NCBI GenBank assembly: GCA_003223245.1
Contig: QHYI01000138.1
Location: forward strand, 62,001-126,000
DNA: 64,000 nucleotides
Origin: Acidobacteriota bacterium
Lineage (GTDB): Bacteria; Acidobacteriota; Terriglobia; Acidiferrales; UBA7541
Reading direction: 5' to 3'
Part shown: positions 38,912-41,852 of the stretch, piece after piece
How the letters are laid out: the number at the start of each line of letters is the position of its first letter
Position numbering within the stretch: the stretch's first letter is position 1
The notes under the pieces: generated by a model
Seen by the model: the letters and a program-made list of their open reading frames with translations, nothing else
The model's database searches: none
Told to the model about the DNA's origin: nothing
Program-made: the position numbers and the translations under genes

Positions 38912-40327
38912 CTATAGCCCGACTACCAGAGAGGTCCCGGTGACGTATTTTTGCAAGCCCAGACCATCCCAGAAAACGCGGTACGTGGCTTTATGCCTTG
39001 CGGGGTCGGTGCCGGTGAAGAGGATTTGGAAGCCGTCGCGCGACCATTCCGCGTCGCTTGCCGACAAGTTGGGGATGAGCAAAGGCGAACGCCGTTTCGA
39101 GTGAAACTCGTAAAGGAAGAGTGCGCCTGCTTGACCGTTTTCTACCGCCGGAGCCCCTGCCGGTGGATGCGCAAACGCCGCAGAAACGAGCACCAGGTCG
39201 AGGTTGCTGGGATGCAACCGCAGCGTGAAACTCGGGCCACAAATGAAATCCGGCCCACACAAATCTCTGACGGGCAGAGTCTGCGTAACCTTGCCGTCTT
39301 CGCTAATCCAGACTAGGTCGGCTTGATTGGCAGTGACCGCCAAAATCGTATGGGGATCGCTCCAGCCTGCAATGTTTTCAAAAGCTTCTGGGCTGAGAAC
39401 CGCTGCCTTGGTGGGATCGTTCGATGGGAAAGTCCAGAGCTGCCACTTTCCGCCTTGATGATTGAGATATGCTATGCGGGAATCGTCAGGAGACCAGACC
39501 GGATCTCGAATCTCGCCGCGAAGCAATTCTTTCACGCTATTCGAATCGTAATCAAACTCGTTGATCGTGCGAATTGCGCCCGCTTCGCGCGTGAAAAGCA
39601 GCTTTTTGCCGTCGCGGGAAGGTGATAAATGCGAACCGGATCCTCCCGGAACAGTTCGAACGACGGAGCCGCGCTTGAAAACAAGCTGGTCGGTGGCATT
39701 CAGGTAAGCAACAGCGACCGGCGATTGGAACTTCGTGACGCTGGAGGCAGGAACCGGCGGTTTCTTCTTGGCATCGTCATCGTCTTCCTGGTCGGGCCGG
39801 TTGTTGATTTTAGGAAAAAGCTCGGTAGCGATGCGCCCGCAACCCTTCAGGGACCCGGTTTGGGCATGGTCGATGGACACGCTGAAGGAGTACTTCCCGC
39901 CGAGCGGAGGAGTCGTGGTCAGAGTGTCATTAGTGGCGTCGGTGCAGGCTTCGCGGGAAACGTGGACAGCGACGATGGCGCCGGTAGCAGAGTCTTTGGC
40001 GTGATACGTCCAAGTTTCCGGGGTGGCTTCCTGGCTGACATCGCCCGGCTCCAGTGGAATGGGCGGGTAACCGTCCCGGTCAAAGCGCTCCGGACCCTTC
40101 AGGCCGATGCGGACACTCCAATTGGGCAGATTGCCAAAGCCAAGAATTAGAATGGGATAGTGAGTAGAGTGGGGGGCTGGCGGGCTCGTGGGGAGATTCT
40201 TCTGTTGCGGCTGCTGTGGAGTTTGCGTAGGGGTTGGCTGTGTCTGCTGTGCCAAACAGGGCAACAACCACACACTGGCGAGCGCCATCGAACAAAGAAG
40301 GATTGCAACCCTCTGGTTAGTCCCCAA
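38912..40327 (-). CDS. TolB-like beta-propeller protein with N-terminal COG3650-like domain
   Basis: 471 residues from a TTG start at 40327 with GGAGG 7 bases upstream; upstream in-frame codons run into the divergent promoter and are not used. Signal peptide, then a Gln/Pro-rich linker, then a domain with ATPETWTYHAKDSATG, SREACTDAT and LKGCGR (Cys pair), as in COG3650 proteins. C-terminal PD40-type blades follow: HLSPSRDGKKLLFTREAG, DPVWSPDDSRIAYLN and DAEWSRDGFQILFTG. Probably periplasmic. The gene points away from the radical SAM gene with a shared upstream region. Confidence 0.75.
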   Translation of the reverse strand: MGTNQRVAILLCSMALASVWLLPCLAQQTQPTPTQTPQQPQQKNLPTSPPAPHSTHYPILILGFGNLPNWSVRIGLKGPERFDRDGYPPIPLEPGDVSQEATPETWTYHAKDSATGAIVAVHVSREACTDATNDTLTTTPPLGGKYSFSVSIDHAQTGSLKGCGRIATELFPKINNRPDQEDDDDAKKKPPVPASSVTKFQSPVAVAYLNATDQLVFKRGSVVRTVPGGSGSHLSPSRDGKKLLFTREAGAIRTINEFDYDSNSVKELLRGEIRDPVWSPDDSRIAYLNHQGGKWQLWTFPSNDPTKAAVLSPEAFENIAGWSDPHTILAVTANQADLVWISEDGKVTQTLPVRDLCGPDFICGPSFTLRLHPSNLDLVLVSAAFAHPPAGAPAVENGQAGALFLYEFHSKRRSPLLIPNLSASDAEWSRDGFQILFTGTDPARHKATYRVFWDGLGLQKYVTGTSLVVGL

Positions 40328-40450
40328 GATTGTCCTCCGGAAGTTAAGAGGATACCGCCGCAGGTGTGCAGAGGCAATTGTTCCGGTCACCGCGATGGGA
40401 GTATTTCCACAGGGGGTGGGTGGGGAGGGAAAGGGCCCTTGCCACGCATA

Positions 40451-40503
40451 CGAATAAAAAGCGAAAGATAGCACTTGACAAAGCGAATAAAAAGCGAAAT
40501 ACT
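40451..40503 (+). promoter_or_regulatory. Promoter of the radical SAM gene with two 16-bp direct repeats
   Basis: TTGACA (40475-40480), 17 bp, AATACT (40498-40503); ATG follows at 40527. CGAATAAAAAGCGAAA occurs at 40451-40466 and 40484-40499, exactly 33 bp apart (about three helical turns). The second copy fills the -35/-10 spacer. Confidence 0.55.
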
Positions 40504-40526
40504 GTGAACCTGCGACGAGGCGGGCC

Positions 40527-41852
40527 ATGTCTCCAGTTCATTCCACAACGGCGACGGATTTTCCGATCCAGCGCCACCACGGTCTACGAACTCCAGAAAC
40601 ACTCTTTCCCGAGTGCCCTGACGACCTGAGCCCGAAGCAAGTGGCCGGCAACCCTGCCCCGGTTGCGGGCCAGCGCGGCAGCATTTCGGATCGCAAGGCG
40701 CCGGATCGCCCCTCGGCGTCTACAGAGCGGAAGCAAGACCTCTCGAATAGCCCGGTCCGAAACTCTGCCACGAACCCCAGCAAGCGCGCGCAAGCGCGGC
40801 TGGTCGGCATTGCCCGCCTTGCCGCAGCTTCGCCGCCTGCGGAAACGAAAAGAAAATCGGCAGAGCGACCGGAATATTTCGTTTTGCCGGTGAAATCGAT
40901 TTTGAACCGGTGCGATTCGCCGCGCGTGCCGTTCGAATGGACCGTCAATCCCTACCGAGGGTGCGAGTTCGCCTGCAAGTATTGCTATGCGCGATACACG
41001 CACGAGTATATGGAATTGGACGGCGGAGAATTTGAGAAAAAGATTTACGTCAAGAAGGACGCGGGGCCGCTGCTCGCCTGGGACGTATCGCACAAGTATT
41101 CCTATGCATCGGAGGCAACCGGCGGAACACTTCCCGAGCACATTGCGATTGGGACGGCCACGGATCCGTATCAGCCAGCCGAACTCGAATATGGCGTGAC
41201 GCGCGCGTGCCTGGAGGAACTGGCCAAGAGGGAAGGGCTGAGTGTTTCCATCATCACGAAGTCGGACCAGATCGTGCGCGACATTGACGTGCTGCAGCGT
41301 ATCGCGGCGCGGTCGGATCTGGCGATCCAGATTACGATTACGACTCTACGTACGCGCCTAGCGCGTATGCTCGAACCACGCGCCCCACGGCCGGATTTGC
41401 GCCTGGCGGCCGTGAAACAATTGACCCAGGCCGGACTCGCGGTAGGAATTTCCGCCTCGCCTCTGATCCCGGGGATTACGGACCGCGAAGGAGATTTGGA
41501 GGCTGTGGCGGCAGCGGGGAAAGAGGCGGGCGCGCAGTGGTTTTTCTCTGGAGTGCTCTTCCTGATGCCTTCTTCAGCAAAACAGTTTTTTCCGTTCTTG
41601 CGAGCCAAATTTCCGCGCCTGGTTCAGCAATATGAGAAATGGTTTAGCAAGAACGGCTACGCGCCGGAAGACTACCGTCAGAAAGCGGCCAAACGCGTCG
41701 CGCGTATCCGGCAGGTGTATGGCCTTCACTCGCGGCCGTTCGTGGACAAGAAACACAGGACACCGTGCACACAGATGTCGCTTGGGTGGGACGCTGCGGC
41801 GGTAGCGCAGGAGCTGGGCCGGACTCGAGCCGATGAAAGAGGATACGCGTAG
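40527..41852 (+). CDS. SPL-family (PA0069-like) radical SAM protein
   Basis: 441 residues. The iron-sulphur motif CxxxCxxC is in GCEFACKYCYAR (about residues 144-155), preceded by FEWTVNPYRG as in spore photoproduct lyase relatives. Later motifs are GTATDPYQPAE, SIITKSD and GISASPLIPGITD. This group acts on unknown substrates and is distinct from true SplB. The first ~110 residues are low-complexity and unlike the family, yet the promoter position (start about 17 bases before ATG 40527) supports this start. Convergent with a Cys-rich protein gene 86 bases downstream. Confidence 0.85.
   Translation: MSPVHSTTATDFPIQRHHGLRTPETLFPECPDDLSPKQVAGNPAPVAGQRGSISDRKAPDRPSASTERKQDLSNSPVRNSATNPSKRAQARLVGIARLAAASPPAETKRKSAERPEYFVLPVKSILNRCDSPRVPFEWTVNPYRGCEFACKYCYARYTHEYMELDGGEFEKKIYVKKDAGPLLAWDVSHKYSYASEATGGTLPEHIAIGTATDPYQPAELEYGVTRACLEELAKREGLSVSIITKSDQIVRDIDVLQRIAARSDLAIQITITTLRTRLARMLEPRAPRPDLRLAAVKQLTQAGLAVGISASPLIPGITDREGDLEAVAAAGKEAGAQWFFSGVLFLMPSSAKQFFPFLRAKFPRLVQQYEKWFSKNGYAPEDYRQKAAKRVARIRQVYGLHSRPFVDKKHRTPCTQMSLGWDAAAVAQELGRTRADERGYA

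Follow-up and report, generated by a model that had tools for sequence, protein, structure and literature searches.

The 64-kb stretch of DNA analysed here (the window) is part of a 6.3-Mb draft genome which, judging from its named relatives, belongs to the gp2/Candidatus Acidiferrum typicum group of the class Terriglobia. It contains a gene for a radical S-adenosylmethionine (SAM) protein resembling spore photoproduct lyase (SPL), preceded by two exact copies of the 16-mer CGAATAAAAAGCGAAA (40451-40466 and 40484-40499) set 33 bp apart. Nowhere else in the window do two 16-mers match exactly, without overlap, at a distance of up to 100 bp, and 200 first-order Markov sequences of the same length yielded no such pair; the repeat in front of the SPL-like gene is real, far beyond chance. 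An earlier reading of the letters of the window (the original prediction) had reported the two copies and their 33-bp period, and had placed the second copy in the spacer between TTGACA and AATACT ahead of the SPL-like gene. Both statements are borne out, the spacer measuring 17 bp. As argued below, the two repeats are very probably LexA (SOS) boxes of a direct-repeat type, GCGAA-N6-GCGAA.

The 16-mer has a direct repeat of its own, CGAA-N7-CGAA, whose period is 11 bp and whose centre is an A-tract. When extended by one base, the second copy reads GCGAA-N6-GCGAA and the first ACGAA-N6-GCGAA. The box nearer to the gene (proximal box) overlaps the -10 element by two bases, and the 311-bp region holds one sigma-70-like promoter site, against a mean of 0.1 upon shuffling. 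The features of the locus are listed in Table 1.

The product of the SPL-like gene matches the radical SAM domain PF04055 with 41 bits (cut-off 29.5), and the CX3CX2C cluster motif appears in the translation as CEFACKYC. With the NCBIfam models for PA0069 and Rv2578c it scores 226 bits, against cut-offs of 360 and 430; the protein thus appears to be related to these families while being, by the curated cut-offs, a member of neither. A spore photoproduct lyase model is not among its four NCBIfam matches, and no solved structure matched at E values up to 1. The closest named loci (among the best 80 of 577) are metagenome-assembled acidobacterial genomes labelled gp2 and Candidatus Acidiferrum typicum. 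A literature search for PA0069 or Rv2578c together with LexA found nothing.

Table 1. Features of the SPL-like locus and its divergent neighbour (positions in the window; PWM, position weight matrix)
Feature	Position	Strand	Basis
Distal predicted LexA box, ACGAATAAAAAGCGAAA	40450..40466	+	PWM score 27.3 in window scan; kept in 41/49 family relatives
-35 element TTGACA, between the two boxes	40475..40480	+	TTGAC directly before proximal box in 29/29 relatives
Proximal predicted LexA box, GCGAATAAAAAGCGAAA, in -35/-10 spacer	40483..40499	+	PWM score 37.3 in window scan; in 29/29 and 20/20 family relatives
-10 element AATACT, 17-bp spacer	40498..40503	+	Similar word in relatives, by eye
Probable ribosome-binding stretch, GAGGCGGG, adjoining the start codon	40517..40524	+	Suggested by position; similar in many relatives, by eye
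Radical SAM protein, 441 amino acids, proposed regulated gene	40527..41852	+	Related to PA0069/Rv2578c families
PD40/WD40-like propeller protein, signal-peptide-like start	38912..40327	-	TTG 40327 probable start; GGAGG at 40338-40334

The box at SOS genes and in relatives

Further genomic copies of the repeat, a check named in the original prediction, were found before ImuA-like, Y-family polymerase and other repair genes. Allowing up to two mismatches, the word GCGAATAAAAAGCGAA occurs at 14 places in the whole genome, against 6 for the reversed control, and a second pattern search gave 25 matches against 11. Of the four exact sites, one lies ahead of the SPL-like gene and the others ahead of an ImuA-like gene, a gene for a Y-family polymerase (IMS domains, 142 bits) and a gene of the DinB superfamily; an open frame nearby looks UvrD-like when its residues are read by eye. 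Sites with one or two mismatches front dnaB (box at G000:C41:10632-10648), a DEAD helicase gene, lexA (box at C72:6413-6429, 48 bp from the lexA match) and recA. With the exception of dnaB, these are expected members of an SOS regulon. The box of the Y-family polymerase gene was tested in this genome only.

Some candidates were set aside. As a genome-wide pattern, the loose CGAA-N7-CGAA gave 468 matches against 463 for its reversed control, and was dropped in favour of the longer word. Sites at C3, C76 and C86 (repeated sequence) and at C5 (near an IS605-type transposase gene) are likely chance or repeat copies, and the site at C148, with two mismatches and a start far off, is likely due to chance. 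Separately, at L009:685-2091 two genes of the DinB superfamily, DUF1572 and DinB_2, diverge from each other close to a UvrD-like open frame, and one of them is immediately preceded by an exact box.

For comparison among relatives, 53 sites upstream of the SPL-like gene, drawn from 29 relatives and not from the genome of the window, were compiled into a weight matrix of 21 columns. The CGAA halves do not vary among these sites, which had been chosen for their consensus matches; a G is favoured before them, and the centre is a conserved A-tract. The base following GAA in the first half varies (A 5, C 22, G 9, T 17 of 53), and that in the second half is A in 47 of 53; the window has T and A, respectively. 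Thresholds were 9 or more for lexA, recA and imuA-like genes, 10 or more for the helicase gene, and 12 or more for dnaB and the named SPL loci. Gene sets for lexA, recA, imuA, dnaB and helicase comprised at most 30 loci each, from 41 to 61 genomes searched; the genome of the window was included in every set save that of lexA, and none of these genes was used in training the matrix.

The box stands upstream of lexA in 29 of 30 family loci (its start usually about 55-80 bp before the matched start), of recA in 30/30, of the DEAD helicase gene in 30/30, and of dnaB in 28/30 (L246-L275; about 50-80 bp before the matched start). Among imuA-like genes it is present in 21 of 23, after seven of the 30 search loci (L186-L192) had been left out as RecA cross-matches; of the two box-less loci, L165 begins at a contig edge and L166 matches from residue 149 only. 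The orientation of the box is forward at imuA, dnaB and the SPL-like gene, forward with one exception at the helicase gene, reversed at lexA, and reversed or both ways at recA. Since orientation varies between genes, the box is more than a mere promoter element. In the recA promoters of L193, L194, L204, L207 and L212, two oppositely oriented boxes are seen about 22-23 bp apart.

These data bear on the idea that the repeat arose by chance duplication, or that it is a curved, A-rich stretch of the promoter to which no dedicated regulator belongs. The A-tract at the centre of each box would suit such an origin, but no simulated window contained such a pair, the CGAA halves do not vary in the matrix sites (chosen though these were for their consensus) and the box is found facing either way at SOS genes. 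The comparative counts already contradict this explanation, which is so improbable that it can be set aside.

The named SPL loci (the best 80 of 577) include 73 acidobacterial and 7 actinobacterial ones. All 73 of the former and none of the latter have a box that begins no more than 500 bp ahead of the aligned start of the SPL-like gene; a few acidobacterial boxes overlap that aligned start, where the true start may lie further downstream. The remaining 623 kb of these loci contain two stray matches. Fifty-five of the 73 (L071-L124 and L132; named mostly gp1, Acidobacteriaceae, Sulfotelmatobacter, Terriglobia or Bryobacterales) are less similar and did not contribute to training. Four of the seven actinobacterial loci carry, within 140 bp upstream, a match with one mismatch to the CGAAC-N4-GTTCG type of box, which is absent from the three Streptomyces loci; these matches, whose positions refer to alignment starts, are suggestive only.

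Promoter layout was compared in 49 relatives (29 plus 20), part of the 70 that carry the gene among 80 searched. In the 29, TTGAC directly precedes the proximal box without exception, lying 6 nt before the matrix start in 28 and 7 nt in one; by eye, the same holds for 20/20 further relatives from nine other genera of the family. The original prediction that regulator sites are built into the promoter of the SPL-like gene is upheld by this constant phase. Two boxes are present in 25 of the 29 relatives, spaced by 29 (1), 30 (2), 31 (4), 32 (11) or 33 bp (7), and in 16 of the 20 further ones, spaced by 29 (1), 31 (2), 33 (12) or 34 bp (1). Overall, the distal box is kept in 41 of 49 at a distance of 29-34 bp, 33 bp being the commonest value (19/41) and 32-33 bp accounting for 30/41, while 8 of the 49 have a single scorable box. 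Thus, the spacing of "exactly three helical turns" proposed originally holds for the 33 bp of the window and becomes a range in the relatives. Absence of the repeat from relatives with the same gene pair (the SPL-like gene and the divergent propeller gene described below) had been named as an outcome that would speak against the proposal; among 21 whole-genome relatives with the propeller gene detected alongside, 18 carry both boxes and three carry one.

LexA as the candidate regulator

No regulator but LexA would be expected at lexA, recA and the error-prone polymerase genes all at once. Because the box fronts all of these, we read the regulator as LexA. The original prediction had placed the binding sites of a regulator in this promoter without naming it; the sites stand, and the genome-wide evidence points to the missing identity. 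One full LexA is encoded in the genome (TIGR00498, 195 bits against a lexA equivalog cut-off of 111), with S24 peptidase and LexA DNA-binding domains. Aligned by eye with solved LexA, it has in place the Ala-Gly, Ser and Lys at work in LexA cleavage. The genome thus encodes a predicted cleavable LexA.

The recognition helix provides a further line of evidence. Families are referred to here by the working labels of the analysis tool (f1, f4 and so on). The helix reads SLATVHKH in 12 of 12 printed LexAs from the box-bearing families f1 and f10. In f4 and f8 it reads SAQAIQQH in six and YPATVQDH or YPGTVQDH in three (nine being readable of 11 printed). In these two families, absence of the box at lexA coincides with the different helix, which strengthens the case for LexA. 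Of 20 more lexA upstream regions, from nine families, 16 match at a score of 11 or more. The box-less lexA promoters of f4 and f8 (L276-L288 and L343) show by eye other repeated words, ACCGTACATATGTACGGT-like in some f4 and GACAGATGTCTAT..TTGAC-like in some f8 members.

Several observations weigh against the LexA interpretation or limit its reach. The whole-genome pattern searches are noisy by themselves, as the reversed controls indicate, and several of the weaker sites are at transposase-like or repeated sequences. The box of recA lies roughly 120-560 bp before the matched start, farther than at the other genes. In a further list of 19 lexA loci, ranked by LexA score, 13 (L276-L288, all f4 or f8) have no box, as have the other 4 of the 20 regions mentioned above: one in f3, one in f4 and two of three in f6, one of the latter retaining CGAA-N7-CGAA by eye. 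The LexA of L158 has the SLATVHKH helix, yet no scorable box is found at its lexA gene. The matrix was seeded from the word of the window, so that the counts at the SPL-like gene within the family are partly circular; the lexA, recA, imuA, dnaB and helicase counts and the 55 untrained SPL loci escape this circularity. Finally, those 55 loci mostly have a single box, with two same-strand boxes in 1/55 and a TTGAC-adjacent box in 6/55. Since single boxes are usual there, the tandem layout looks like a trait of the family.

Alternatively, the sites might belong to a different DNA-damage regulator that acts on these SOS genes alongside LexA; a WYL-domain activator of the PafBC kind and a further LexA-like protein are two examples. 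Mycobacteria have been described as using WYL activators in their damage response (PMC10693628), and the genome itself encodes, in a 92-amino-acid open frame (G000:C5:8498-8698, L345), a short protein with a LexA-like helix-turn-helix only. The box, however, fronts lexA itself (29/30), fills at the SPL-like gene the -35/-10 spacer, which is a repressor's place, and is missing from lexA promoters in the two families whose LexA has a different recognition helix. The short protein for its part has another helix (PPSVHQM), and no box scoring 9 or more occurs in the surrounding 2.3 kb. A regulator other than LexA is therefore improbable. As a separate observation, the match of the short protein is confined to the LexA-like DNA-binding domain, with no peptidase match, and similar short LexA-like matches occur in some relatives.

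Since the proximal box directly follows TTGAC in 29/29 relatives, LexA should block the promoter of the SPL-like gene. By analogy with LexA biology elsewhere, a LexA dimer bound at the proximal box would occupy the -35/-10 spacer and exclude RNA polymerase. Another LexA, bound some three turns upstream at the distal box, immediately ahead of the -35 element, would strengthen repression. Upon DNA damage, RecA filaments would stimulate self-cleavage of LexA and both boxes would be emptied. The freed promoter would then allow the SPL-like gene to be expressed along with lexA, recA, the Y-family polymerase gene, imuA, dnaB and the helicase gene.

True cooperative binding of two LexA dimers on the same helix face, with later or sharper switching than at single-box SOS genes, would refine this interpretation without contradicting it. 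The narrow spacing (29-34 bp in the 41 relatives with two boxes, 32-33 bp in 30 of these) is in keeping with binding to one face of the helix, but the distance could be set by the -35 element alone, which lies between the boxes. Moreover, a variation of 5 bp remains, only one box is scorable in 8 of 49 relatives, and the 55 less similar acidobacterial loci mostly have a single box. Cooperativity is thus plausible from the layout, and we propose it only tentatively.

The divergent gene and related LexA systems

Upstream of the boxes, on the opposite strand, lies the propeller gene. Its open frame reaches 40528, but translation probably starts at TTG 40327, since GGAGG precedes this codon and a signal-peptide-like start follows. 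In the genus of the window, it was detected as a neighbour in 22 of 25 whole-genome loci, own locus included (tblastn, 1e-5), and the same holds for 18/18 of the most similar named loci (L053-L070); it was undetected in L048-L052 and L071-L132 (flanks of 1.5 kb and up to 4 kb). The pairing with the SPL-like gene was seen only in this genus and the most similar named loci. The suggestion that the regulator might act on the propeller gene as well is not supported: the box persists in loci where the gene was undetected, no minus-strand sigma-70-like site was found in 40250-40560, and the likely start is about 124 bp from the nearer box.

The acidobacterial box appears closely similar, not identical, to the alphaproteobacterial LexA box GTTC-N7-GTTC (GAAC-N7-GAAC on the other strand), with which it shares the direct repeat, the 11-bp period and the GAA core. 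Going by the motif as given in the available portion of PMC8565304, certain copies match GAAC-N7-GAAC exactly, among them GCGAACAAAAAGCGAAC, present at imuA of L174 and dnaB of L246. The acidobacterial box differs in that its invariant half is CGAA, a G is favoured before it, the base after GAA varies and an A-tract is conserved at the centre; GAAC in both halves, the mark of the alphaproteobacterial box, is not a property of it. According to those same parts of PMC8565304, 17 LexA motifs had been counted in 2021, direct-repeat motifs such as GTTC-N7-GTTC are known, and SplB is SOS regulated in several species. The accessible text of PMC7739468 has LexA regulons that include a radical SAM protein and direct-repeat recognition by LexA evolving several times. 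The Balneolaeota regulon it describes likewise combines a direct-repeat motif with a radical SAM target, in a different phylum. The splB gene, as an SOS gene of other phyla, likewise encodes a radical SAM protein; here the boxes are in tandem, within one family, and their sequence is another.

More than one SOS box per promoter, with tighter repression, is known from the recN and colicin genes of Escherichia coli. Boxes of the E. coli type are palindromic (CTGT-N8-ACAG). Those promoters resemble the present one in having several LexA sites, and differ in spacing, layout and the palindromic nature of the boxes.

No paper on an acidobacterial LexA motif was found by searching for Acidobacteria or Solibacter with LexA in a partial library, the spelling Acidobacteriota being unsearched; such a negative is weak evidence, and the novelty of the motif is not proven. 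For SOS control of dnaB, the literature search gave no paper on the subject by title, and the word dnaB is absent from PMC8565304 as far as its available text goes. From its box, dnaB would be an unexpected SOS target. On balance, we lean towards the view that a large part of one acidobacterial class (probably Terriglobia, from the named relatives) uses an undescribed direct-repeat LexA box, GCGAA-N6-GCGAA, that its regulon includes dnaB, and that, in two or more families of the class, other motifs have taken the place of the box, together with a change of the recognition helix.

If dnaB is indeed under SOS control, this would be an unusual arrangement for a replicative helicase gene. For the uncharacterised SPL-like enzyme, the consistency of its SOS-type promoter may point to a role in DNA repair. 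That box and recognition helix change together within a single class offers a testable case of LexA motif change, including the question of how a direct repeat is read by a dimer. Few bacteria are more common in soil than acidobacteria, and a defined LexA box would make their damage regulon readable from genomes alone.
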